Below, in pieces: positions 30,252-50,081 of a stretch of DNA of 64,000 nucleotides; the stretch's first letter is position 1, and each line of letters starts with the position of its first letter. The notes below the pieces were generated by a model, which had not been told where the DNA came from, did not search any database, and was given only the letters and a program-made list of their open reading frames with translations. The stretch covers positions 1-64,000 of the forward strand of contig NZ_JAAFKD010000015.1 in assembly GCF_013299165.1 (NCBI RefSeq). The letters run 5' to 3'. The DNA comes from Microcoleus sp. bin38.metabat.b11b12b14.051. Its GTDB lineage: Bacteria; Cyanobacteriota; Cyanobacteriia; Cyanobacteriales; Microcoleaceae. The translations under genes and the position numbers were made by a program.

Positions 30252-31841
30252 TTAGAGCGATCGATAAACGCGATAATTAATCTCGGGGAAGATGTTGTCT
30301 ATCTCCTGAACCTTCTCCAACCAGCCGGAATCCACTTTGCCTTCTTTCACTTCATCGTACAGCTTGTGAAAGCGCATTAAGTGCGATCGCGTCCGCCGCA
30401 CCGCATAGGGTACCATCGTCCCTGTACGCATGATAAACGCCCAGTCAGACGATTGAGCTAACAGCACTTCCCGCGCTGCTTGATTCAACGCCCGCAACTG
30501 CAACTCATCCTCTGCTTCCATGTTTCCCAACTCAATCATTCGTTCCGCTGCTTTATGTAAGTGCGGATAAATCCAAGCGTTGGTATCGTTCAGCCAATAT
30601 TCGTGGAAACCGCGGAAACCCCAGCTAGACTGGGAAGGACGGCACACTTGCTGAGTCGGATTTCCCCGCAAATAATCGGCTAGGTGCGTCATTTCGTAGG
30701 TATTTTGGTCGTACCAACTCTTGCGGAATAAGTAATCTAAGAACCAAGGCCCTTCGTACCACCAGTGACCGAAAAGTTCGGCGTCGTAAGGCGATACAAT
30801 AATTGGGGGACGCTGCATGATGCCGTTGAGGTGTTCGACTTGCCGTTCCCGGTTGAAGGCGAAGTTGCTGGCGTGTTCGGCTGCTTTTTCCCGCGCCCAG
30901 TAAGGATCGTATAACTGTTTGTCGCCTAAACCCAATCCGCGACCGGTGATTTTGTGATATTTAATCCCGGTGTTTTTGCGCTGGCCGTTGGGCATGATGT
31001 AGGGTTTGATGTAGTCATATTCGGCTTCCCAACCCAAATCTTTGTAGAATTCCCGGTATTCGGCGGCGCCGGGATAGCCGACTTCGGATGACCAAACTTG
31101 CTGCGATGATTCGTGATCTCGACCAAATGCTGCGACTCCGCATTCGGTGAAAATTGGGGCGTAGCTACCGTAGCGGGGACGCGGGCGGGCGTAGAGGATG
31201 CCGTGTCCGTCTGTGAGAAAATACCGGAGGCCAGCGTCGGCTAACATCCTCTCTAAGCCCTCGTAGTAGGCGCATTCGGGCAGCCAAATGCCTTTTGGTC
31301 GGCGGCCGAAGTTTTGTTCGTAGCTTTCGCAGGCTACTTGTATTTGCGCCCAAACTGCTTCGGGGTACATTTTCATCAGCGGTAGGTAGCCGTGGGTGGC
31401 GCCGCAGGTGATGATTTCGAGGTTGTTTGTGTCTTGGAATTGTTTGAAGGCTTTGACTAAATCTCGATCGAACTTTTCCCAATAATTCCGCACTTGGGAG
31501 AAGTGCGCGGCGTAATGTTCGGCTAAATATCGGAGGTGACCGTTGCCGCTGTTGTGTTCGATTTCGAGATCGGCTAGTTCTTCTAGTTTGGCTAAATGAT
31601 CGTCGAAACGGTCTTGTAGTAAGGGATCGCGCAACATGGCTACCAAGGGCGGTGTCATGCTCATGGTAATTTTAAAGTCGATGCCGTCGCGTTTTAGCCC
31701 TTCAAAGACTTGCAGCAGGGGAATGTAGGTTTCGGCGATCGCCTCAAACAGCCATTCTTCTTCTAGAACGTAGTCGCTTTCGGGGTGGCGGACAAAAGGC
31801 AAGTGGGCGTGGAGAACGAGGGCGAGGTAGCCAATAGTCAT
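30252..31841 (-). CDS. GH57 1,4-alpha-glucan branching enzyme
   Basis: 529 residues from ATG 31841 (MTIGYLALVLHAHLPFVRHP). An upstream in-frame start at 31961 falls inside the leader repeat and is not used. The family motifs are present: HAHLP at the start, catalytic Glu189 in WLPECAYYEG, and Asp353 in IVSPYDAELFGHWWYEGPWF. The C-terminal third is the helical DUF1957 region (WGFRGFHEYWLND). It adds alpha-1,6 branches to glycogen or semi-amylopectin. Expression probably depends on the 382-bp leader it shares with gatB. Confidence 0.9.
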   Translation of the reverse strand: MTIGYLALVLHAHLPFVRHPESDYVLEEEWLFEAIAETYIPLLQVFEGLKRDGIDFKITMSMTPPLVAMLRDPLLQDRFDDHLAKLEELADLEIEHNSGNGHLRYLAEHYAAHFSQVRNYWEKFDRDLVKAFKQFQDTNNLEIITCGATHGYLPLMKMYPEAVWAQIQVACESYEQNFGRRPKGIWLPECAYYEGLERMLADAGLRYFLTDGHGILYARPRPRYGSYAPIFTECGVAAFGRDHESSQQVWSSEVGYPGAAEYREFYKDLGWEAEYDYIKPYIMPNGQRKNTGIKYHKITGRGLGLGDKQLYDPYWAREKAAEHASNFAFNRERQVEHLNGIMQRPPIIVSPYDAELFGHWWYEGPWFLDYLFRKSWYDQNTYEMTHLADYLRGNPTQQVCRPSQSSWGFRGFHEYWLNDTNAWIYPHLHKAAERMIELGNMEAEDELQLRALNQAAREVLLAQSSDWAFIMRTGTMVPYAVRRTRSHLMRFHKLYDEVKEGKVDSGWLEKVQEIDNIFPEINYRVYRSL

Positions 31842-32217
31842 AAAAAGAAATACGGTAAGTGGGAAACTCGGCGACTTTAGTCCCGAGAGGGAAACGACCC
31901 GGGGGACTTTAGTCCCCGTGAACCCCCTTGCGGGGTTGGAGGGGTATGGTTGCCCCTCCAATGGAGATATTATGGTCTCCTTTCTCCCTTGCGGGGTAAT
32001 GTTAGCCTCGACCTGGTTATAAAGGCTTGTTAGACCTGCAACACTGTTTCAGTGACTTTAAAACTGTTTAATTGCAGATGACAGAGCGAAAAACTGGCGT
32101 CGCATTTTCCGGTGTCGTGACCTAAATAACGGCTCCTCGCGATCGAGGGGTCTGGTCAATACAGCTTGCTCGATTTCTCTTACAAGCTCAGTCCCTAAAG
32201 GGCTGAGTTACTGACAA
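31836..32217 (-). repeat. Duplicated leader, copy A (inverted relative to copy B)
   Basis: 382 bp that ends at the ATG of the GH57 gene and is ~98% identical, as reverse complement, to 39792-40174 in front of gatB. Matching runs from TTGTCAGTAACTCAG at one end to TTCTTTTTATGACT at the other, so the shared segment includes both start codons. It holds several stem-loops (CTCAGCCCTTTAGGGACTGAG, GGAGGGGCAACCATACCCCT, CGGGGACTAAAGTCCCC). These would form a structured 5' leader; differences between copies are mostly single transitions that keep the stems. Confidence 0.9.
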
Positions 32218-32303
32218 TGATTTGGATGACGGCAGTTAGGGACAGCTTTAAAATATTTTAAGATTTTATGCTGAAACGGCACACGCAAAGTGCTGTGTTT
32301 TTT

Positions 32304-35300
32304 TTAATTGGTTTTCTCTAACAGACTAAATGCCAGCAAATTCTGATTTTCTGCTTGCTCTCGGATCAGGACTGCTGCTGTTTGAGAGTCTACTGGCTTT
32401 GAGAAAAAGAATCCTTGGGCGTACTCGCATTTTAATCCTTTAAGTATCGATAGTTGTGAGGCTTCTTCGACTCCTTCTGCTACTACATCCATGCCTAAAT
32501 TGTGGGATAAAGTAACGATCGATCGCACAATTTCTGTCGGATCGATGCCTCCTTTGCCGAGGTCGAATTCGCCTCCCATCCTGCTGACAAAAGAGCGGTC
32601 TATTTTTAAGGTATTGGTGGGAAAGCGGTGCAGGTAGGAGAGCGATGAATAGCCGGTGCCGAAGTCGTCGATGCAAAGGTGTATGTTTCGGGCTCTAAGC
32701 TGCACTAGCATTGCGGTTACTGAATCGGAATTTTCGATGAGTACGCTTTCGGTAATTTCTAGTTTTAAACTGCTGCCATCGAGGTGAGTTTCTTCGAGAA
32801 CTCGATCGATATATTCGATTAAATCTGGCTGAGAAAACTGTTTGACGGAAAGGTTGACGCTGACGCTTAAGGGCGGGTTGTTGTGAACTAACTGCTGCCA
32901 ATGACGGATTTGGTGGCAAGCGGTACGCAGTACCCAGCGGCCTAGCGGTACGATCAATCCGGTTTCTTCGGCGATGGGAATAAATTCGTTGGGGGAAACT
33001 AAGCCGCGTTCTGGATGCTGCCAGCGCACTAGGGCTTCAAAACCGATAATTGCGTTGTTGGCGATCGACACGATCGGCTGGTAGTGAATGATAAACTGGG
33101 GGTCGGCCGATAAGGGAGGTAAGCTCGATCGCCCTGATTGGGGAGATTTTGCCGATGGCAGAGAGTCTTCTTCTCTGGCGGGGTCTTTAATAGATTCGAT
33201 CGCCCGCCGCAGGTCGTTTTCTAGCTGCAACAGCTTCAAAGCATGGGCGTGCATGGAACTGTTGAAAACTTCGTGTCGGGCTCGGCCGAGTTCTTTGGCG
33301 CGGTACATGGCGGTGTCGGCGTCGCGCAGCAGGTTTGTCGGTTCTTCGTATTCGCCAGAACTTAAAGCAATGCCGATGCTGGCGGTGATAAATACTTCGT
33401 GTCCATCTAGCAGGATGGGGGAAGTGATTGTCTTTTGCAGGCGGTTGACTATGCCCGTAGCTTCATTTACGCCGTCGATGTCTTCTAGCAACAGCACAAA
33501 CTCGTCTCCTCCGATGCGCGCTACTGTATCTCCGACTCTGAGACAAGCTTCCAGACGCCGCGCGATCGCAACTAGCAGTTGATCGCCGATCGCATGGCCG
33601 AGGGAATCGTTGACTACTTTAAATCGATCTAAATCGAGAAACAGCACCGCAAACAAGTAGTCTTTGCGCCGTTTTGCCAGCCTCAGAGCGTGTTCGAGCC
33701 GATCGGTAAATAGGGCTCGGTTGGGCAATCCGGTGAGGGAGTCGTGAAAAGCGTCGTGCAGCAGTTGTTCCTCGGCTTTTTTGCGCTGCGTGATGTCGTG
33801 GCAGTTGATCACGATGCCCTTGACTGCCGGATCGTGCAGCAAATTGGTTGCTACAGCTTCTACATAACACCAAGAACCGTTGCGGTGGCGCACTCTGTAC
33901 TCCAGTGGGGACTGGCTTCTTTTGGGGTTTTCTATGGCTTTGTGGAGGGTTTGGGCGATCGCAGCGCAGTCGTCGGGGTGAACTGTGCTTAGGGCGCTGC
34001 GCCCGATCGCCTGGTGGGACGAGTAGCCTAAAATGCGCTTGACGGAAGGGCTGATGTAGCGAAAGATGCCTTCGGCGTCGAGAATGATCGTGATGTCTGT
34101 GGCGTTTTCAATCAGCGAGCGAAATCGCTGTTCGCTTTGTCTGAGGGCTGATTCTGCCTGTTTGCGATCGCTGATGTCGAGAGCTACTCCGTCGATGATG
34201 ATGTCGCCGTTTTCGTTTTTGGAAAATCTGGCGCTGTCTTGCACCCACTTGACTTCGCCGGACTTCAACACGATCCGGTACTGGCGATCGCAGGGCAACA
34301 GACTGGCACTCGATGCTGCTACGCTGCTGTCATAGGAGCTTTTGTCGTTTGGATGGATGATTTCGGTCAACAGTTGGGGGCACGCCATCGCTTCTTCTGG
34401 GCCGATCCCAGTAACTTCGCGCACGCCCGGACTGACGTAGGGCATGGAGGTGGTGCCGTTTGGATGCAGCACGGCACGGTATACTGAGCCGGGAATGTTT
34501 GCTGCCATTGTGGTTAGCTGCTGCTGGATGCCGCGGACTTCTGCTTCAGCGCGCTTGCGTTCTGCGAGTTCGGTTTGCGCTTGTTGGTAGAGTTCGGCTT
34601 GGTGGATCGCGATCGCGCACTGATCGGCTATGGCTTCGATCAGGGATAGTTCTTCGGCGCTCCAAAACCGCGGGCGATCGCACTGGTAGAGGCCAATTCC
34701 TCCCAAAAATGAATGCTGGTAGAGCAGGGGCGCGATCGCGACGGCGCGAAACCCCACCAACTCTGCTGATGCTTGCAGGGACGGACACAAGCTTGATAAT
34801 TCTTCGATCGCGACGGTTTCTCCAGCAGCCAGGGAGGTGCGGTAGTGTTGGGCAAATTCGCAATTTAGCCCGATGAGTCCTTGTCTGTCTGCGGCTTTGC
34901 TGATGTAGCGAACTATGATATTGCCGAAAGCATTTGGTTGCAAGATCGTGCAGCCGCTGATTTCAAGAGCTTCGTGCAGTTGATCGGCGGTGGTTTGCAG
35001 CACTTCGTCGAGTACCAGGGTTTCGCGCATGGCTTGCACGATGCGGTTGACGATCGCCTCACGAGTCGCTTGCCGCTGAATTTGGGCGATCGCGAATTGT
35101 TGCTGGCGGCGCATTTTGTATTCTTGGAGCGATCGTTCTAATACTGTTGGCAACCTAAACAGCCGCCCTTTTAATACGTAATCGGTCATTCCCGCTTTGA
35201 TGCACTCTACTGCCGCTTCTTCTCCCAAACTTCCCGTTACTAAAATAAATGGTATGTCTTGCCCTAATTCCTGCATCAATCTCAACACTTCTAAACCGTT

Positions 35301-35579
35301 GAAGGCTGGGAGGCGGTAATCTGACAGCACAGCATCGTACTCGCAATTTTCCAACATTTGTCTGCATTCTGTTGCTGTTTCGGCAGTATCGCACTTAAAA
35401 TTTACTCCTCCCGCTTCTAAGGCGAGCACTATTAATTCCATATCTTCTGCCATGTCTTCGACAATCAACAGTTTTAATGTTGATTCCGCTGTCATTTTCA
35501 TTAAATAGTTTGTCTGTTCGCGATCTAGCATACGGAATTCTTGATTTTTTGATTGGTCGTTCGTGTTGCTAAATTTCAT
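32304..35579 (-). CDS. REC-GAF-PAS-PAS-GGDEF-EAL signalling protein
   Basis: 1091 residues. An N-terminal receiver domain (about 35-150) has LLIVEDMAEDMELIV and the phosphoacceptor Asp in VLSDYRLPAFNG. A GAF domain (about 190-330) and two PAS domains (about 350-600) follow. The GGDEF domain (about 610-775) has the intact motif RIGGDEFVLLLE, and the EAL domain (about 830-1075) has FEALVRWQH plus the DDFGTGYSSLSYL metal-site loop. Both enzymes look active, so the protein may make or break cyclic-di-GMP depending on phosphorylation. A low-complexity linker of about 35 residues separates GGDEF and EAL. The adjacent histidine kinase could phosphorylate the receiver domain. Confidence 0.9.
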   Translation of the reverse strand: MKFSNTNDQSKNQEFRMLDREQTNYLMKMTAESTLKLLIVEDMAEDMELIVLALEAGGVNFKCDTAETATECRQMLENCEYDAVLSDYRLPAFNGLEVLRLMQELGQDIPFILVTGSLGEEAAVECIKAGMTDYVLKGRLFRLPTVLERSLQEYKMRRQQQFAIAQIQRQATREAIVNRIVQAMRETLVLDEVLQTTADQLHEALEISGCTILQPNAFGNIIVRYISKAADRQGLIGLNCEFAQHYRTSLAAGETVAIEELSSLCPSLQASAELVGFRAVAIAPLLYQHSFLGGIGLYQCDRPRFWSAEELSLIEAIADQCAIAIHQAELYQQAQTELAERKRAEAEVRGIQQQLTTMAANIPGSVYRAVLHPNGTTSMPYVSPGVREVTGIGPEEAMACPQLLTEIIHPNDKSSYDSSVAASSASLLPCDRQYRIVLKSGEVKWVQDSARFSKNENGDIIIDGVALDISDRKQAESALRQSEQRFRSLIENATDITIILDAEGIFRYISPSVKRILGYSSHQAIGRSALSTVHPDDCAAIAQTLHKAIENPKRSQSPLEYRVRHRNGSWCYVEAVATNLLHDPAVKGIVINCHDITQRKKAEEQLLHDAFHDSLTGLPNRALFTDRLEHALRLAKRRKDYLFAVLFLDLDRFKVVNDSLGHAIGDQLLVAIARRLEACLRVGDTVARIGGDEFVLLLEDIDGVNEATGIVNRLQKTITSPILLDGHEVFITASIGIALSSGEYEEPTNLLRDADTAMYRAKELGRARHEVFNSSMHAHALKLLQLENDLRRAIESIKDPAREEDSLPSAKSPQSGRSSLPPLSADPQFIIHYQPIVSIANNAIIGFEALVRWQHPERGLVSPNEFIPIAEETGLIVPLGRWVLRTACHQIRHWQQLVHNNPPLSVSVNLSVKQFSQPDLIEYIDRVLEETHLDGSSLKLEITESVLIENSDSVTAMLVQLRARNIHLCIDDFGTGYSSLSYLHRFPTNTLKIDRSFVSRMGGEFDLGKGGIDPTEIVRSIVTLSHNLGMDVVAEGVEEASQLSILKGLKCEYAQGFFFSKPVDSQTAAVLIREQAENQNLLAFSLLEKTN

Positions 35580-35780
35580 TCTTTTTGATTAAGTTTTTCG
35601 ATCCGGATTCTGAGTTTTTATTTTTTTTAACTGAGATTATTTATCAAATTTAACAATTTTCACAACCGCCACCGATGGCTGCCGAAACCGACTGTGACTT
35701 ATTTAACTGTATAATAGTTTTAAATTCTGAATTTAGAACTATTATACTGGTAACTTACGAATTTAGATTGCGGTTTGAGA

Positions 35781-38700
35781 TTATTTGCCTAGTTTAAAGT
35801 AAAATGTCGCTCCTTGAGTAGGTAGGCTTTCTGCCCAAATCGTCCCGCCGTGGCGGTGAATAATCCGCCCGACGATCGCCAAACCGATGCCCGTACCTTC
35901 AAATTCTCTCTGGGAGTGCAGCCGCACAAAAGCTCCAAAAAGTCGATCGGCATATTCAGAAGGAAAACCGACGCCGTTATCCTTGACAAAAATCGTTCCA
36001 TCGGGTAAAGAATCAATAACTATTGTAGCGGGAGCGCGATCGCGGCTGAACTTGACGGCGTTGCTAATCAAGTTGCTGAACACCTGTTGTAGCAAAGTTG
36101 GATCTCCCGTCACCGCCGGTAAATTTCCGACAGCAAATTCAACTTGGCTGTGGGAAGTTTGGGGGTGATCTGTGGCAGTTCGGGGTTTAGTCAATTTAAT
36201 CGCAGTTTGCACCAAACGGGTGAGATCGATCGGAATTTGCATCAACTCGGTGCGGCTCACCCGCGAAAGAGCGAGCAAACCGTCAATCAACAAACTCATT
36301 TTTTGGCTGCTGTCATCAATCACTTCCATATAATGAACAATTTTAGGATCGCTGACAGCATCAGTGGATTCTAACCGCTGTTTCAGCGCATTCACAAAAC
36401 CTGAAATATGGCGCAAAGGAGCGCGGAGGTCATGGGAAACAGAATAGCAAAAAGATTCTAATTCTTGATTGGCAGCCTCTAATTGCTCCGTGCGTTGCGA
36501 CAAAGCTTGTTTTGTCTCAACCAACTCGGTGATATCGCGAGAAGTGCCAATTAAAGCATAAACTTCGCCATCGAGATTTCTCAGGGGAACTTTATAAGTA
36601 TCAAAATAAGTAGTTTTGCGCTCGGACAAAACATATTTTTCCTGCAAATGTAGAGTTTCGCCTGATTCAAATACCCGCAAGTTTTCCTGCACAAATTTTG
36701 TGGCTAGTTCAGTGGAAAAACATTCAAACACCGTTTTGCCCTGCATTTCTTTGGTGCTGTTGAAACCAGCCATTTTTGCCAAAGGTTTATTGACAAAAGC
36801 CTGACGCATATTTTCGCGTTCTACCACAAAAATGCGATCGGGCAAAGCATCAAAAAAAGTCTCTAGTTCGGCAGTACGCTGGGCGACTTGAGCTTCTAAA
36901 GTTTCGTTGAGCTGTTTGAGTTCTGCCTCGGCTCGCTTGCGATCGCTAATATCTTGACCGATGCCGATACATCTGCCGTCTGAGAGACGAATGTTTGCCC
37001 AAGTAGTGTCCAGAATTCGACCATCTCTAACTGTTGTTTTGAAGTCTTCCCAGTTCTCAGTTGCTGCTTTAATTTGAGCGATAACGTATTGGCGGTATTC
37101 TGGCTGCGGATAACATTCGGTAAAGATATCGTGGTTTTTGATATCTGCAAAACTCCAGCCCAGCACTTTTTCCCAGTAGCGATTTACCCACTCTATTTCA
37201 CCGCTATTACCCAAGAATGCCAGCATGACTGGCACGTTATCAAAGATTGTTTGCAGCACTTCTTTTTGCTGTTTTAAGGCTGATTCGGCTTGTTTGCGTT
37301 GCGTAGCTGCTGCCACGGCATCGCTGATGTCGAGTACGGAACCGATGATCTGTTTTATTTGTCCCTCTGGGGTTATTTTAAAGATTGTCGAGCGATCGTG
37401 AACCCAGCGCCATTCCCCGTTTTTGTGTTTGATCCTGTAGTCGATTTCCTGGATTTCGTGGGGGTTGGTGCTGTTTTCCAGCCGCTGCATACCTGCAATT
37501 AAGGCAGCCCCATCCTCGGGGTGAACCAAGGTAGAGATAGCTTCTGAACCCAACTCTTGCAATTCTTCAGGACTGTAGCCGAGCATGGCTGTGACTGCTG
37601 CATTTGCATAGATATTTTGCTGTGCTTCTGTGTCGTAAATGTACAGAAAATTGGGGATGGTTTTAATGATGCTTTCTAAAAGTTCTTGATGTTTTTGCAG
37701 TTCCGATTCGGCTTGTTTGCGGTGTGTCAAGTCTAGCACAAAACTTACCCCAAATTCCTGCGTTCCTTCTAAAAATGCAGCGCCTATCAGCACGGGAACG
37801 CGACAGCCGTCCGAGCGGATGTATTCTTTTTCAAAGGGGACAATCACGTTTGCAGACACGAGCTCGGAGATTTTTTGTTCGTCTAGATGGCGGTACTCTG
37901 CCGGTGTCATTGCTTGCCAGCTAATTTTTTGGGAGGACAAATCGTCTCGCGTGTATCCTACTAGGTTTAAAAAAGCCTGATTTGCGTCGGTAATCTGACC
38001 GTTAATATTCCAAAAAAATATGCCGATGATATTAGAATCTACTACGCGCCTAAATCTAGCTTCGCTTTGGCGCAACTGAGCTTCGACTTGTTTGATTTCT
38101 GTGATGTCGCGGGTGATGCCTAAAACAGTTTCTACTGAATTGTCCTCAGCAAATTCGGGAATTACTCGACTTTGATAGTATTTTTTCCCGTGGGGAGTGG
38201 GAAAGTCAAATTCGATGGTTTCGGGTTTTCCTGTGCGGAAAACTTTGAGCAAAGCTTCGTCCCACAGGTGGCAAAAGTGGGGGGGCATTCCTAATTCTCT
38301 GTTGCTTTTGCCGATAAATTCTGACGGGGGTTTTCCGGTGGCTTGTTGGACTTCTTTGTTGACGTACAGGTGGCGCAGTTCTCGATCGAACCGCGCTATG
38401 ATATCGGTGGCATTTTCGGCGATCGCGCTGAAGGCTTGTTCGCGCAGGTGCAGTTCTTCTTGAGTGCGGTGGTGTTCGGTTATATCTCTGGCAAAAGACA
38501 GAATTGAAACTAATTTTCCTTCTGCATCGATCAGTGCAGAATTGTACCACTCGCAGTAAATTACCGAGCCATCTTTGGTATAGTTGCGGTTGCGACAAAC
38601 GTTGCGGGGTTCTTGGTTCTGCAAGAGTTGATTTGTGGCGGCGCACACTTGCTCGAAGTCGAATTCATAAACTATTGACCATTCGTGCCAATATTTGCCG

Positions 38701-39056
38701 ATTACTTCTGCTGCACTCCAGCCAAATATTTGTTCTGCCACGGGCGACCACCGGACTACCCGAAATTCGCTGTCCCACTCTATAACTGCCATTGGCGAGT
38801 TTTTTAAGTGAAATTCCCGCCGCTCCTGGGCTTGTTTGATTTTGGTTTGCAGTTGCTGGCGCAGTTCCTTGACCCCGGCAAAATGCTGGCTGATTTCCTG
38901 TCCGTTTGCTGCCCCTGCTTTGACTATCTGAGCAATGGTTTCTGCTGTTTGTTTTTCCAGTTCGTTCCAAGCAAGTTCGAGGGCTGATTCTGCCTGATCT
39001 AGGTCAGTGATACTGTTGGCAAACAGTGGGGCACTTTCTACAGGAATTTCTGGCAT
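35781..39056 (-). CDS. Multi-PAS sensor histidine kinase
   Basis: 1091 residues, all cytoplasmic. Six PAS domains can be followed, each starting with an 'h-x-x-h-x-[DN]-x-h-P-x-x-[IV]' pattern (for example KNSPMAVIEWDSEFRVVRWS, FDNVPVMLAFLGNSGEIEWV). They precede a HisKA helix with SHDLRAPLRHISGF, where His is the phosphoacceptor, and an HATPase with VKDNGVGFP and GTGIGLAIVGRIIHRHGGTI. The end carries no receiver domain. The 200-base gap to the downstream REC-GGDEF-EAL gene and the common strand suggest the pair could form a phosphorelay that changes c-di-GMP. Which signals the PAS domains read is unknown. Confidence 0.88.
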   Translation of the reverse strand: MPEIPVESAPLFANSITDLDQAESALELAWNELEKQTAETIAQIVKAGAANGQEISQHFAGVKELRQQLQTKIKQAQERREFHLKNSPMAVIEWDSEFRVVRWSPVAEQIFGWSAAEVIGKYWHEWSIVYEFDFEQVCAATNQLLQNQEPRNVCRNRNYTKDGSVIYCEWYNSALIDAEGKLVSILSFARDITEHHRTQEELHLREQAFSAIAENATDIIARFDRELRHLYVNKEVQQATGKPPSEFIGKSNRELGMPPHFCHLWDEALLKVFRTGKPETIEFDFPTPHGKKYYQSRVIPEFAEDNSVETVLGITRDITEIKQVEAQLRQSEARFRRVVDSNIIGIFFWNINGQITDANQAFLNLVGYTRDDLSSQKISWQAMTPAEYRHLDEQKISELVSANVIVPFEKEYIRSDGCRVPVLIGAAFLEGTQEFGVSFVLDLTHRKQAESELQKHQELLESIIKTIPNFLYIYDTEAQQNIYANAAVTAMLGYSPEELQELGSEAISTLVHPEDGAALIAGMQRLENSTNPHEIQEIDYRIKHKNGEWRWVHDRSTIFKITPEGQIKQIIGSVLDISDAVAAATQRKQAESALKQQKEVLQTIFDNVPVMLAFLGNSGEIEWVNRYWEKVLGWSFADIKNHDIFTECYPQPEYRQYVIAQIKAATENWEDFKTTVRDGRILDTTWANIRLSDGRCIGIGQDISDRKRAEAELKQLNETLEAQVAQRTAELETFFDALPDRIFVVERENMRQAFVNKPLAKMAGFNSTKEMQGKTVFECFSTELATKFVQENLRVFESGETLHLQEKYVLSERKTTYFDTYKVPLRNLDGEVYALIGTSRDITELVETKQALSQRTEQLEAANQELESFCYSVSHDLRAPLRHISGFVNALKQRLESTDAVSDPKIVHYMEVIDDSSQKMSLLIDGLLALSRVSRTELMQIPIDLTRLVQTAIKLTKPRTATDHPQTSHSQVEFAVGNLPAVTGDPTLLQQVFSNLISNAVKFSRDRAPATIVIDSLPDGTIFVKDNGVGFPSEYADRLFGAFVRLHSQREFEGTGIGLAIVGRIIHRHGGTIWAESLPTQGATFYFKLGK

Positions 39057-39791
39057 ATTTTTGAGATTTAGGCAAGTGTTTTTTTGATAAAAATCAATTT
39101 AATTGAAAAATTTAAAAAAATAAATTTATGGTTAAATTATACATTTTAAATTTTTCAATTGTGGGCTGCCCCGGCGTGATTTTAGGCGGCACGCACGATC
39201 GGTTGAGCGTCCCGATCGGCTTTCGGGCGATCGCCCGAAAACTCTCCTCACTCAAGTACGGGTGCCGTGGGGTGCTTAGTATATTTTTGCACGCGATCGT
39301 GGTTTCGGGCGATCGAAATAATACCGATGCGTTCGCCCTGCGGCGGCGGCCGATCTGTAGCAGGGCATTGGTGCACTGCTCCCAGCAGCACGAGGGCGGC
39401 GCCGTCTGGCAATTCATGGTGTGAATTATTTGTCACTAGCGGCCACAGGAGCCGATCTTGTTTGCGAGTTCTGCCTGCGTGCAGTGAAAACCGTTTGATG
39501 GGGATCGAATTAAGCTTAAATCTAGCGCCAGAATTTAACCTGACTTCGGAAGCCTCGCTCTGGCTCGCATCCGCCCGATCGAGCTGTGGGGGACTTTCAC
39601 AATACTCTTCCAAGAACGATCGCCACGGATGACCGGTACCGATACTTGGATTTTTCGCCAGATATGCAAAGGAGTTCAAGCTGGTTGTTGACACCAGTGA
39701 AACCCTGCTTGCCCCGCCCAATAATCTCAAGTCGGTTTGCTCAATAAACAGCTAAGATAAAATATAAAGTTATTCAGTCTTTATAGGTCGC
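39057..39791. other. Intergenic region, no supported gene
   Basis: The stretch between the kinase gene and leader copy B has open frames on both strands (39248-39730 leftward; 39267-39632 rightward). Neither has a recognisable domain, codon pattern or plausible start context. GC-rich segments with palindromes (CGGGCGATCGCCCG, CGATCGTGGTTTCGGGCGAT) may be remnants of repeats. I do not call a gene. Confidence 0.5.
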
Positions 39792-40174
39792 TTGTCAGTA
39801 ACTCAGCCCTTTAGGGACTGAGCTTGTAAGAGAAATCGAGCAAGCTGTACTGACCAGACCCCTCGATCGCGAGGAGCCGTTATTTAGGTCACGACACCGG
39901 AAAATGCGACGCCAGTTTTTCGCTCTGTCATCTGCAATTAAACAGTTTTAAAGTCACTGAAACAGTGTTGCAGGTCTAACAAGCCTTTATAACCAGGTCG
40001 AGGCCAACATTACCCCGCAAGGGAGAAAGGAGACCACAATATCTCCATTGGAGGGGCAACCACACCCCTCCAACCCCGCAAGGGGGTTTACGGGGACTAA
40101 AGTCCCCCGGGTCGTTTCCCTAGGAAGGACTAAAGTCGCCGAGTTTCCCACTTACCGTATTTCTTTTTATGACT
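39792..40174 (+). repeat. Duplicated leader, copy B (upstream of gatB)
   Basis: The partner of 31836-32217 in inverted orientation. The shared sequence runs to the gatB start codon at 40169 and six bases into it. Differences from copy A are few: several single transitions and a short block CTAGGAAGGAC versus CTCTCGGGAC near the 3' end, where pairing with AGTCGCC is kept. The extent and position suggest that both genes now have the same promoter and leader. Confidence 0.9.
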
Positions 40175-41659
40175 GCTGCTGCACCAGTTAAAACTCAGTA
40201 CGAAGCCATTATCGGTCTCGAAACACACTGTCAATTGAGTACGAATACTAAAATTTTCTCCAGTTCTTCTACAGAATTTGGCAATGCCCCAAATACAAAC
40301 ATTGACCCAATTTGTATGGGAATGCCTGGAGTGTTGCCAGTATTAAATCAAAAAGTGCTGGAGTATGCAGTGAAAGCAGGGCTGGCTCTCAACTGCGAAA
40401 TCGCACCTTACAGCAAGTTTGACCGCAAGCAATATTTCTATCCGGATTTGCCGAAAAATTATCAAATTTCTCAGTTCGATTTGCCGATCGCTACTAACGG
40501 TTGGCTGGAAATTGAACTGGTGGACAAAACGGGCAATTCTACTAGAAAAAAAATCGGGATCACTCGCTTGCACATGGAGGAAGATGCCGGGAAATTAGTT
40601 CATGGCGGCAGCGATCGCCTCAGCGGATCTACTTATTCAATGGTGGACTACAACCGCGCCGGCGTGCCTTTAATCGAAATTGTTTCGGAACCGGATTTGC
40701 GCTCGGGCGCCGAAGCAGCCGAATACGGTCAAGAAATACGCCGGATCGTCCGCTATATCGGTGTTGGCGACGGGAATATGCAGGAAGGTTCCCTGCGGTG
40801 CGACGTGAATATTTCGGTGCGCCCCGTTGGTCGAAAAGAGTTCGGCACTAAGGTGGAAATTAAAAATATGAACTCTTTTAATGCGATCGAACGGGCGATC
40901 GACTACGAGATCGAGCGACAAATTGAAGCGATCGAAAATGGCGAAACTATCCTCCAAGAAACGCGGCTTTGGGATGAAAACAAGCAGTGTACTTTCAGTA
41001 TGCGACTCAAGGAAGGTGCCAGCGATTATCGGTATTTCCCGGAACCGGATTTGCCTCCGATCGAGGTTTCCACCGAGCAATTGCACGATTGGAAAGCTCA
41101 ACTCCCGGAATTGCCGGCCTCCAAGCGCCATCGCTATGAATCTGATCTCGCTCTTTCTCCCTACGACGCGCGGGTGCTGACTGACGACAAAGCGGTTGCT
41201 GAGTATTTTGAAAAGTCGATCGCCGCCGGTGCTGCGACTAAACAAGCTGCCAATTGGGTGATGGGCGATATCACTGCTTACCTGAAAAATCAGAAACTGG
41301 CGATCGCAGAAATTCCTTTCCAACCGCAGGATTTAGCCGAACTGCTGGCGCTAATTGATGCTGGCACCATCAGCGGCAAAATCGCTAAAGATATTTTGCC
41401 GGAGTTACTCGCAAGCGGCGGTTCGCCTCAGAAGTTGGTAGAAAGCAAGGGTTTGATTCAAATTTCGGATACAGGGGCGATCGATCGGGCGATCGATGCC
41501 GCGATCGCCGCTAATCCCAAGGAGCTCGAACAGTATCGCGCTGGCAAAACAAAACTGCTGGGTTTCTTTGTCGGTAAGGTGATGAAGGAAACGGGCGGCC
41601 GCGCCGATCCGAAATTGACCAATGAATTGCTGGCAGCCAAGCTTAACACCCCAGGCTGA
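40169..41659 (+). CDS. gatB: Aspartyl/glutamyl-tRNA amidotransferase subunit B
   Basis: 496 residues. GatB is part of the GatCAB complex that turns Glu-tRNA-Gln (and Asp-tRNA-Asn) into the Gln and Asn forms, essential where the direct synthetase is lacking. Family hallmarks are [51 protein letters not shown] and [19 protein letters not shown], then the C-terminal YqeY-like helical domain ([16 protein letters not shown]). The start ATGACTGCTGCTGC is set by the leader, which ends there. It is a lone gene, as is usual in cyanobacteria. Length and conserved residues are complete. Confidence 0.95.
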
Positions 41660-49643: not shown

Positions 49644-50081
49644 ATGAGAGACAATTTTACGCAGTTATATGTCCATTTTACTTGGGCAACTTGGGATAGA
49701 TTGCCTTTGATTACTCCTGATATTCAACAACTTATCTATGCAGCAATTATTGCAGAATGTCAGAAGTTGGGATGCACTGTGATTGCTGTTGGCGGTATCG
49801 AAGATCACGTTCACCTGTTAACAGGTTTTCCGACTACTTTAGCGGTATTTGAGATAATTAAGCAAGTCAAGGGCAGTTCTTCCCATTTAATCACTCACGA
49901 AATTAAACCGGGTGATTTTTTAAAATGGCAAGGCAGCTATGGGGCATTTACTGTTAGCCGTGATGGGCTCGACGTTGTGACTAAATATATCAAAAATCAA
50001 GCTGTTCACCATAAGGAGAAATCAATGATTCCTCATTGGGAACTGACTCACAAACCACTAGATAATCTCAATCGCCCGTGA
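49644..50081 (+). CDS. RAYT-type (IS200/Y1 family) transposase
   Basis: 145 residues from ATG 49644. This is a HUH endonuclease: VGGIEDHVHLLTGFP has the His-x-His pair (H55, H57), and Tyr115 in DVVTKYIKNQAVHH is the nucleophile. The N-terminal YVHFTWATWDRLPLIT is typical of the TnpA_REP/IS200 family. REP-associated tyrosine transposases act on REP hairpins rather than on classic IS ends. Here REP-like arrays stand directly on both sides with opposite orientation. It lacks a TnpB partner. It is intact in length, so it may still be active on the arrays. Confidence 0.85.
   Translation: MRDNFTQLYVHFTWATWDRLPLITPDIQQLIYAAIIAECQKLGCTVIAVGGIEDHVHLLTGFPTTLAVFEIIKQVKGSSSHLITHEIKPGDFLKWQGSYGAFTVSRDGLDVVTKYIKNQAVHHKEKSMIPHWELTHKPLDNLNRP

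Follow-up and report, generated by a model that had tools for sequence, protein, structure and literature searches.

Two short inverted repeats in a stretch of 64,000 nucleotides from Microcoleus sp. bin38.metabat.b11b12b14.051 (contig NZ_JAAFKD010000015.1, positions 1 to 64,000; in the following "the window") precede the genes of a GH57 glycogen branching enzyme and of the tRNA amidotransferase subunit GatB. Both repeats belong to a family of HEARO elements (IscB-type omegaRNA) which occurs in many copies and lacks an open reading frame (ORF), and at both genes the element was inserted cleanly, immediately 5' of the sequence ATGA and without target duplication. ORF-less copies of this genome, and likewise those sampled from the genus, are found exactly on start codons, in sense orientation with the gene, far more often than control ATGA sites.

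The inverted repeat was detected at 31836-32217 and 39792-40174, and its arms comprise 330 nt with 98% and 48 nt with 100% identity. This agrees with the first-pass annotation of this DNA, which had described arms of about 98% identity ending in the start codons of two unrelated genes (ATG of GH57 at 31839-31841 on the minus strand, ATG of gatB at 40169 on the plus strand). Both arms match the Rfam family RF02033 (HEARO) over model positions 1-211 of 211 with scores of 136.3 and 134.4 bits (gathering cut-off 83 bits), and no other Rfam match was obtained at the gathering cut-off in the rest of the window. A passage of PMC9755519 describes HEARO as the 5' untranslated region (5' UTR) guide RNA, or omegaRNA, of IscB. 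A riboswitch or another known shared cis-regulator was also considered and rejected, since HEARO was the only family found by Rfam in the window and the downstream genes are unrelated according to family searches.

The genome-wide search for further copies, which the first-pass annotation had proposed, was carried out on 7.07 Mb in 64 contigs and showed that the window copies are not a pair. In total, 35 HEAROs scored above the Rfam cut-off and two more were listed below it, while blastn retrieved 11 near-full-length copies (92-100% identity) beside many diverged pieces. All 35 HEAROs start with GTCAG (34) or GTCGG (1). An embedded IscB ORF is present in two of them (L020 and L030) and absent from the other 33, including both window copies, which were therefore filed as ORF-less derivatives of IscB/IsrB elements. 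A recognised end was found for 32 of the 33 ORF-less copies, with lengths of 312-447 bp. The window copies belong to a young subfamily of 11 copies (at least 91% identity), which was seen in one of the 29 genomes of the genus searched, with no more than 24 candidates scored in each genome. Within this scope, the 375-bp query gave nothing above 90% over a comparable length in the other 28 genomes; among the candidates scored, the best full-length match showed 87% identity, a 90% match covered 267 of the 375 positions and a 91% match 209 positions. The subfamily is therefore probably recent. One HEARO situated off gene starts (L011, G000 C16:156546) has two similar flanks, as if it had been inserted between tandem repeats.

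The mobile unit is somewhat shorter than the repeat, because the other copies start with GTC[AG]G on the left and end right before ATGA. The surplus letters shared by the arms, ATGACT at one end and TT at the other, are host sequence; the repeat seems to enter both start codons because GH57 and gatB both begin with ATGACT, and the agreement on the TT side is due to chance. The features of the two sites and of the segment between them are as follows (window coordinates).

31842..32215, minus strand: ORF-less HEARO element at GH57, 374 bp (copy comparison and empty GH57 sites in relatives)
31996..32215, minus strand: omegaRNA core, Rfam RF02033 HEARO, 134.4 bits (Rfam match)
31838..31841, minus strand: ATGA target or TAM-like motif (TAM, target-adjacent motif), the GH57 start codon plus A (gene start and empty sites)
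32216..32231, minus strand: predicted 16-nt guide region, host 5' flank of the omegaRNA (from the left boundary and the IscB omegaRNA layout in a passage of PMC9640706)
30252..31841, minus strand: gene of the GH57 1,4-alpha-glucan branching enzyme (Pfam, upstream comparison)
39794..40168, plus strand: ORF-less HEARO element at gatB, 375 bp (copy comparison and empty sites in relatives)
39794..40013, plus strand: omegaRNA core, Rfam RF02033 HEARO, 136.3 bits (Rfam match)
40169..40172, plus strand: ATGA target or TAM-like motif, the gatB start codon plus A (gene start and empty sites)
39778..39793, plus strand: predicted 16-nt guide region, host flank 5' of gatB (from the left boundary and the same omegaRNA layout)
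40169..41659, plus strand: gatB, Asp/Glu-tRNA amidotransferase subunit B (Pfam)
32304..35579, minus strand: enclosed response regulator gene with GAF, PAS, GGDEF and EAL domains, a bystander (Pfam and gene order in relatives)
35781..39056, minus strand: enclosed PAS histidine kinase gene, a bystander (Pfam and gene order in relatives)

The glycogen-branching and tRNA-amidation functions assigned in the first-pass annotation were confirmed by Pfam (GH57/BE_C and GatB), as was the presence of two signalling genes, an EAL/GGDEF response regulator and a PAS histidine kinase, between the arms. The frame of GH57 is open into the element as far as a TTG at 31961 (window 31842-31961), which yields an ORF of 569 instead of 529 amino acids; a gene caller could thus wrongly append element-coded residues at the N-terminus. 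At the gatB copy, no internal promoter or terminator was found; the sole weak promoter match lies upstream of the element (39697-39725).

The insertion was traced by comparing the sequences upstream of 25 of 27 GH57 matches (the partial matches L237 and L238 were dropped) and of 26 of 29 gatB matches, own genome included (the partial match L265 and the 78% second copies L266 and L267 were dropped). At the empty sites of both genes in relatives, the native left flank runs directly into the start codon, and the window elements sit exactly between this flank and the start codon with no target duplication. In relatives whose gatB site is empty, for example in the genomes G020 and G003, a sequence that closely resembles the predicted gatB guide region lies directly beside ATGA. 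The gatB start is occupied in 5 of 26 and the GH57 start in 5 of 25 genomes, and the window subfamily was found at the two genes in the own genome only. Judged by the last 75 nt before the start, a second element type occupies the gatB start in G001, G017 and G018 and a third one in G002; at the GH57 start, another type occurs in G003, G012, G027 and G028. Two further genes carry different elements on one and the same start codon (pairs L174/L201 and L144/L157, 58% and 73% identity). GH57 starts with the context ATGG are occupied in 0 of 6 and those with ATGA in 5 of 19 cases, which is too few to build on. At another locus, L034 (own C1:119614) has the same left flank as L165 in G007, and the gene that follows is also the same, but in G007 it is preceded by an additional 43 nt of right flank that open with ATGA; here the intervening stretch may have been lost through recombination of two elements that occupied adjacent ATGA sites.

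For the start-codon statistics, copies were classified automatically on joined empty sites, and the ATGA sites of the window served as control, with the same gene caller for both. Element ends were curated; most were located by patterns holding ATGA or [AG]TGA, and the few irregular ones were set visually. The own sample consists of 32 copies, that is, the 33 ORF-less copies without the truncated L010. All 29 genomes of the genus contain HEAROs, with 1 to 40 copies each, and 66 genus loci were taken: 26 best hits from 25 genomes (two from G025) and 40 more loci from G011 (20), G013 (10), G028 (7) and G006 (3). Among them are 51 ORF-less loci, of which 49 remained after removal of L155 (contig end) and L198 (truncated). 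The right end of the 35 own copies is followed by ATGA in 33 cases, by ACGA in one (L033), and one copy is truncated (L010); of the 49 genus copies, 45 are followed by ATGA, 3 by GTGA and 1 by ATGG.

By the automated classification, 26 of the 32 own copies lie exactly on a start codon, and 28 of 32 if PsaI (38 amino acids) and PetL (33 amino acids), which were recognised by Pfam/NCBIfam behind two more copies, are added. In the genus sample, 31 of 49 copies lie exactly on a start, 10 precede a sense gene by at most 150 nt, 4 are intergenic elsewhere and 4 lie inside called genes. Control ATGA sites coincide with starts in 26 of 349 cases when all sites are counted and in 26 of 94 cases when the non-coding ones are taken; against the latter, Fisher's test gave p = 3.8e-8 for the own and p = 4.3e-6 for the genus copies. 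In the young subfamily of the window, all 11 copies are on start codons. The genes concerned, according to Pfam/NCBIfam, include those of ribosomal protein L18, trigger factor, a Clp protease, PsaI, PetL, YbaB, PadR and a HicB-like protein, among others, as well as a class II (lysine-type) tRNA synthetase, which was taken for lysS. A general loss of the Shine-Dalgarno sequence does not accompany the insertions, since a Shine-Dalgarno-like 4-mer occurs in only 5 of the 29 native flanks at own start-site copies, in comparison to 3 of 29 element ends. The HEARO of locus L161 (G017 C15:23274) appears by eye to lie inside a toxin-like frame of an addiction module, whereas the script placed it in a 5' UTR.

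The genome also encodes the putative partner proteins. Four RRXRR matches and ten Y1 transposase matches were found, and two of the RRXRR genes (L061 and L062) code for intact IscB proteins of 423 amino acids with RRXRR and HNH domains (NCBIfam NF040563, 470.2 and 465.9 bits, cut-off 175 bits). Both genes lie next to a HEARO within elements of roughly 1.6 kb, and the final 22 bases of these elements are identical to the right end of the window copies. RRXRR matches were obtained in every one of the 29 genus genomes, and not all of them represent intact IscB. In the own genome, one RRXRR match is decayed, with four in-frame TAA codons (G000 C26:40799-41404, L041/L060), and another lies in an open frame of 326 amino acids and perhaps belongs to a different subgroup (G000 C29:50677-51144, L042/L059). 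A Y1 (IS200-like) transposase gene is located in the window at 49656-50000, 9.5 kb from the gatB copy, and does not share the element ends. In L052 (about 2100-2410; G000 C7), 12 nt from the 3' part of the element return with a period of 67 nt in an apparent tandem array close to a Y1 transposase match.

The first-pass annotation had held that the few changes between the two copies keep the stem-loops. For the family as a whole, an alignment of 35 ORF-less members gave compensatory double changes at 30 of the 58 predicted pairs, which indicates that the omegaRNA fold is conserved across the spreading lineages. A kept fold fits the use of the RNA by IscB in trans and is no proof for each single copy. 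Work by Weinberg from 2009 is said to have placed HEARO adjacent to ATGA or GTGA, with insertion immediately 5' of the motif. Passages in the literature describe the guide as the 5' segment of the IscB omegaRNA (PMC9640706) and give the TAM as NTG for CwIsrB and DsIsrB, which are cyanobacterial IsrB proteins, and as NTGA/TTGA for DtIsrB (PMC9581776). The geometry in the window, as far as the sequence goes, fits a guide from the left flank and a TAM-like ATGA in the right flank.

It is fairly probable that the copies are IscB-dependent mini-elements for which the ATGA of a start codon is the target and for which the guide lies in the 5' UTR of the host gene. For their movement, the elements would rely in trans on a Y1 transposase of the IS200/IS605 type, an enzyme that acts on subterminal hairpins, with TCAT/ATGA as target, and their omegaRNA would work with an IscB encoded elsewhere in the same genome. 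The guide would correspond to the last approximately 16 nt of the host 5' UTR; as this is host sequence, it would be made only if the host promoter reads into the element. An ATGA start codon would thus offer a target and TAM motif together with a promoter just upstream, while the coding sequence is left intact. The ribonucleoprotein would recognise the empty allele by guide and ATGA and favour copying the element back, so that the element is retained, and the downstream gene would be translated from a leader that is longer by about 375 nt and ends in the U-rich right end of the element. A wider generalisation can be put forward tentatively and is, on the whole, unlikely to hold in full: that these copies represent a class of mini-transposons which use the start codon as target and TAM, have their guide made by host transcription and replace the leader for translation initiation, and that dozens of genes, essential ones included, have as their 5' UTR the guide RNA of a Cas9 ancestor, through which IscB, by binding it, could exert regulation.

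Several observations weigh against this interpretation. The ATGA rule is partly built in, because the patterns used for finding the ends contain ATGA or [AG]TGA. Elements that carry IscB are less biased, with 6 of 14 on starts and 2 of 14 in 5' UTRs, which would not be expected from a pure targeting rule; these 14 are the 17 carriers (15 from the genus, 2 own) without L181 (contig end), L191 and L208 (no recognised end), and some of them end in GTGA, whereas the control holds ATGA only. Three own copies (L011, L020 and L057) lie elsewhere, L009 is undecided (ORF of 51 amino acids), L033 has ACGA and L010 is truncated. The genus sample was drawn from best-scoring hits, with 35 of its 49 copies coming from four genomes, and its loci L172 and L182 represent two insertions that the own genome shares. 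None of the ten Y1 transposase matches shares the element ends, the longest common exact stretch being 19 nt. Finally, other genera of the order hold, as judged by eye, many ORF-less copies off start codons. In the order, HEAROs were found in 59 of 120 genomes drawn, and 68 loci were inspected: 29 are IscB carriers by script, and L271, L298 and L323 also look carrier-like by eye. Among the non-carriers, 10 show a gene start at the element-like end (L282, L293, L297, L308, L310, L322, L329, L332, L333 and L334) and 13 lie off starts (L270, L276, L283, L299, L301, L302, L307, L309, L311, L314, L315, L327 and L330), two of which, L302 and L309, are shortly upstream of a start; this count was made by eye and is uncontrolled, with the remaining loci unassigned.

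The bias might also arise at the time of insertion, if the machinery prefers translation start regions, for example ATGA in unpaired AU-rich surroundings or under active transcription, with the guide RNA being irrelevant to it. This deserves serious consideration, although it falls short of an even chance. The youngest subfamily is the most biased one, with 11 of 11 copies in comparison to 48 of 70 other ORF-less copies (one-sided Fisher p = 0.023; the 48 of 70 comprise 17 of 21 own copies, psaI and petL being counted by family search, and 31 of 49 genus copies). This favours targeting, because slow purging would make the old copies the most biased. Moreover, 11 of 11 would be unlikely if all ATGA sites in sense 5' UTRs were equal (control 26 of 48; 0.0012). 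However, the IscB carriers, which include two own elements with nearly the same right end, are on starts in 6 of 14 cases compared to 28 of 32 own ORF-less copies (p = 0.003), a difference that is also seen against all ORF-less copies (59 of 81, p = 0.034) and is not significant against the genus sample alone (p = 0.22). Apart from ATGA itself, no motif could be made out; the sequences flanking the own copies at start sites are only rich in A/T, as judged by an uncontrolled inspection.

The lower bias of the carriers favours retention, which might even act alone: elements would insert at any ATGA, copies inside genes would be lost, and those outside transcribed leaders would lack a guide transcript and decay. 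Such an explanation is possible and, on balance, rather doubtful. It is in line with the 10 of 18 off-start genus copies that lie at most 150 nt upstream of a sense gene, with the conserved omegaRNA structure and with the RRXRR genes in all 29 genomes, but a young family without any non-start copy argues against it.

Domestication, which extends the leader idea of the first-pass annotation to all copies and in which the element is kept as a useful leader, for example through IscB binding its omegaRNA and controlling the mRNA, seems improbable. The start of the trigger factor gene is occupied in three genomes by elements that are 80-84% alike, identical elements precede rplR in two genomes, and an omegaRNA upstream of a translated gene is the arrangement found in IscB loci; against this, the occupancy is patchy, as given above for GH57 and gatB, and no common function is evident among the target genes.

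The first-pass annotation had regarded the repeat as a mobile or converted promoter or 5' leader that co-regulates GH57 and gatB, with recombination between the copies flipping the enclosed genes. Mobility was borne out by the 35 HEAROs of the genome and by the empty sites in relatives. The position of a leader exactly at the start codons was likewise found and turned out to be general to many genes rather than special to these two; its transcription is presumed. For a leader that evolved for the co-regulation of the two genes, no evidence emerged beyond the sharing of the leader itself; the same subfamily precedes 11 genes without evident common function. Five relatives were compared for synteny, and in the two named ones that hold all four genes, GH57 (-), the EAL gene (-), the histidine kinase gene (-) and gatB (+) have the same order and orientation, so that there is no sign of a flip. 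Of these two, L063 is empty at gatB and at GH57 (where the start is ATGG), whereas in L064 the gatB site holds an element of a different type and the GH57 site is empty. In a separate comparison of GatB sequences, which may have left out records of the genome itself, Lyngbya sp. CCAP 1446/10 (93%) and Microcoleus sp. EPA2 (91%) came out as the nearest relatives with a name. The native left flanks of gatB and GH57 each adjoin their own start codon in relatives, so that the copies are absent there with no trace of an inversion, the structural outcome that the first-pass annotation had named as speaking against its reading. A single promoter shared by GH57 and gatB through gene conversion or segmental duplication, with the segment between them being invertible, would account for the 98% identity and the inverted orientation, but in view of the other 33 HEAROs, the native flanks that are intact up to the insertion point and the conserved gene order in two named relatives it can practically be discarded.

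HEARO/IscB elements and stand-alone omegaRNAs are already known, and the position on start codons is the new part within the literature searched. In passages of PMC9581776, PMC9640706, PMC9755519, PMC8400943 and PMC8987985, among other literature searched, no statement on the insertion of ORF-less copies at start codons was found; other sources could mention it. For Limnospira, a passage of PMC8400943 set HEARO RNAs aside as remnants and called for a study of their location. If the preferred interpretation of IscB-dependent mini-elements is true, HEARO copies may be more than decayed remnants. The guide of an IscB omegaRNA lies 5' of and outside the element, so that a mobile element must secure its transcription; landing on start codons would secure it and would explain the suitability of an NTG(A) TAM. 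Many cyanobacterial genes may then bear a hidden structured leader of about 375 nt, and gene callers may misplace the starts of such genes.

Regarding known systems, many omegaRNA loci per IscB gene were reportedly described by Altae-Tran in 2021 for Ktedonobacter racemifer, and the present family resembles such stand-alone ORF-less omegaRNA loci in having many of them per IscB gene. Like miniature inverted-repeat transposable elements and other non-autonomous insertion sequence derivatives, the copies are short, ORF-less, present in multiple copies and presumably moved in trans; unlike these, they show no target duplication at the sites examined and carry a structured guide RNA. TldR and other TnpB-derived regulators are RNA-guided proteins descended from transposon nucleases; unlike in these, two of the nuclease genes found here look intact, and a regulatory role is only putative. 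With HEARO RNA and the IscB/IsrB OMEGA elements of the IS200/IS605 superfamily, the copies have in common an omegaRNA of family RF02033, intact IscB relatives within one genome, the lack of a target duplication (at GH57 and gatB, the sites examined) and a right flank, ATGA, that matches the NTG(A) TAMs given for IsrB in a passage of PMC9581776. Unlike typical HEARO/IscB elements, the present copies have no ORF and are located mostly on host start codons in this genome.

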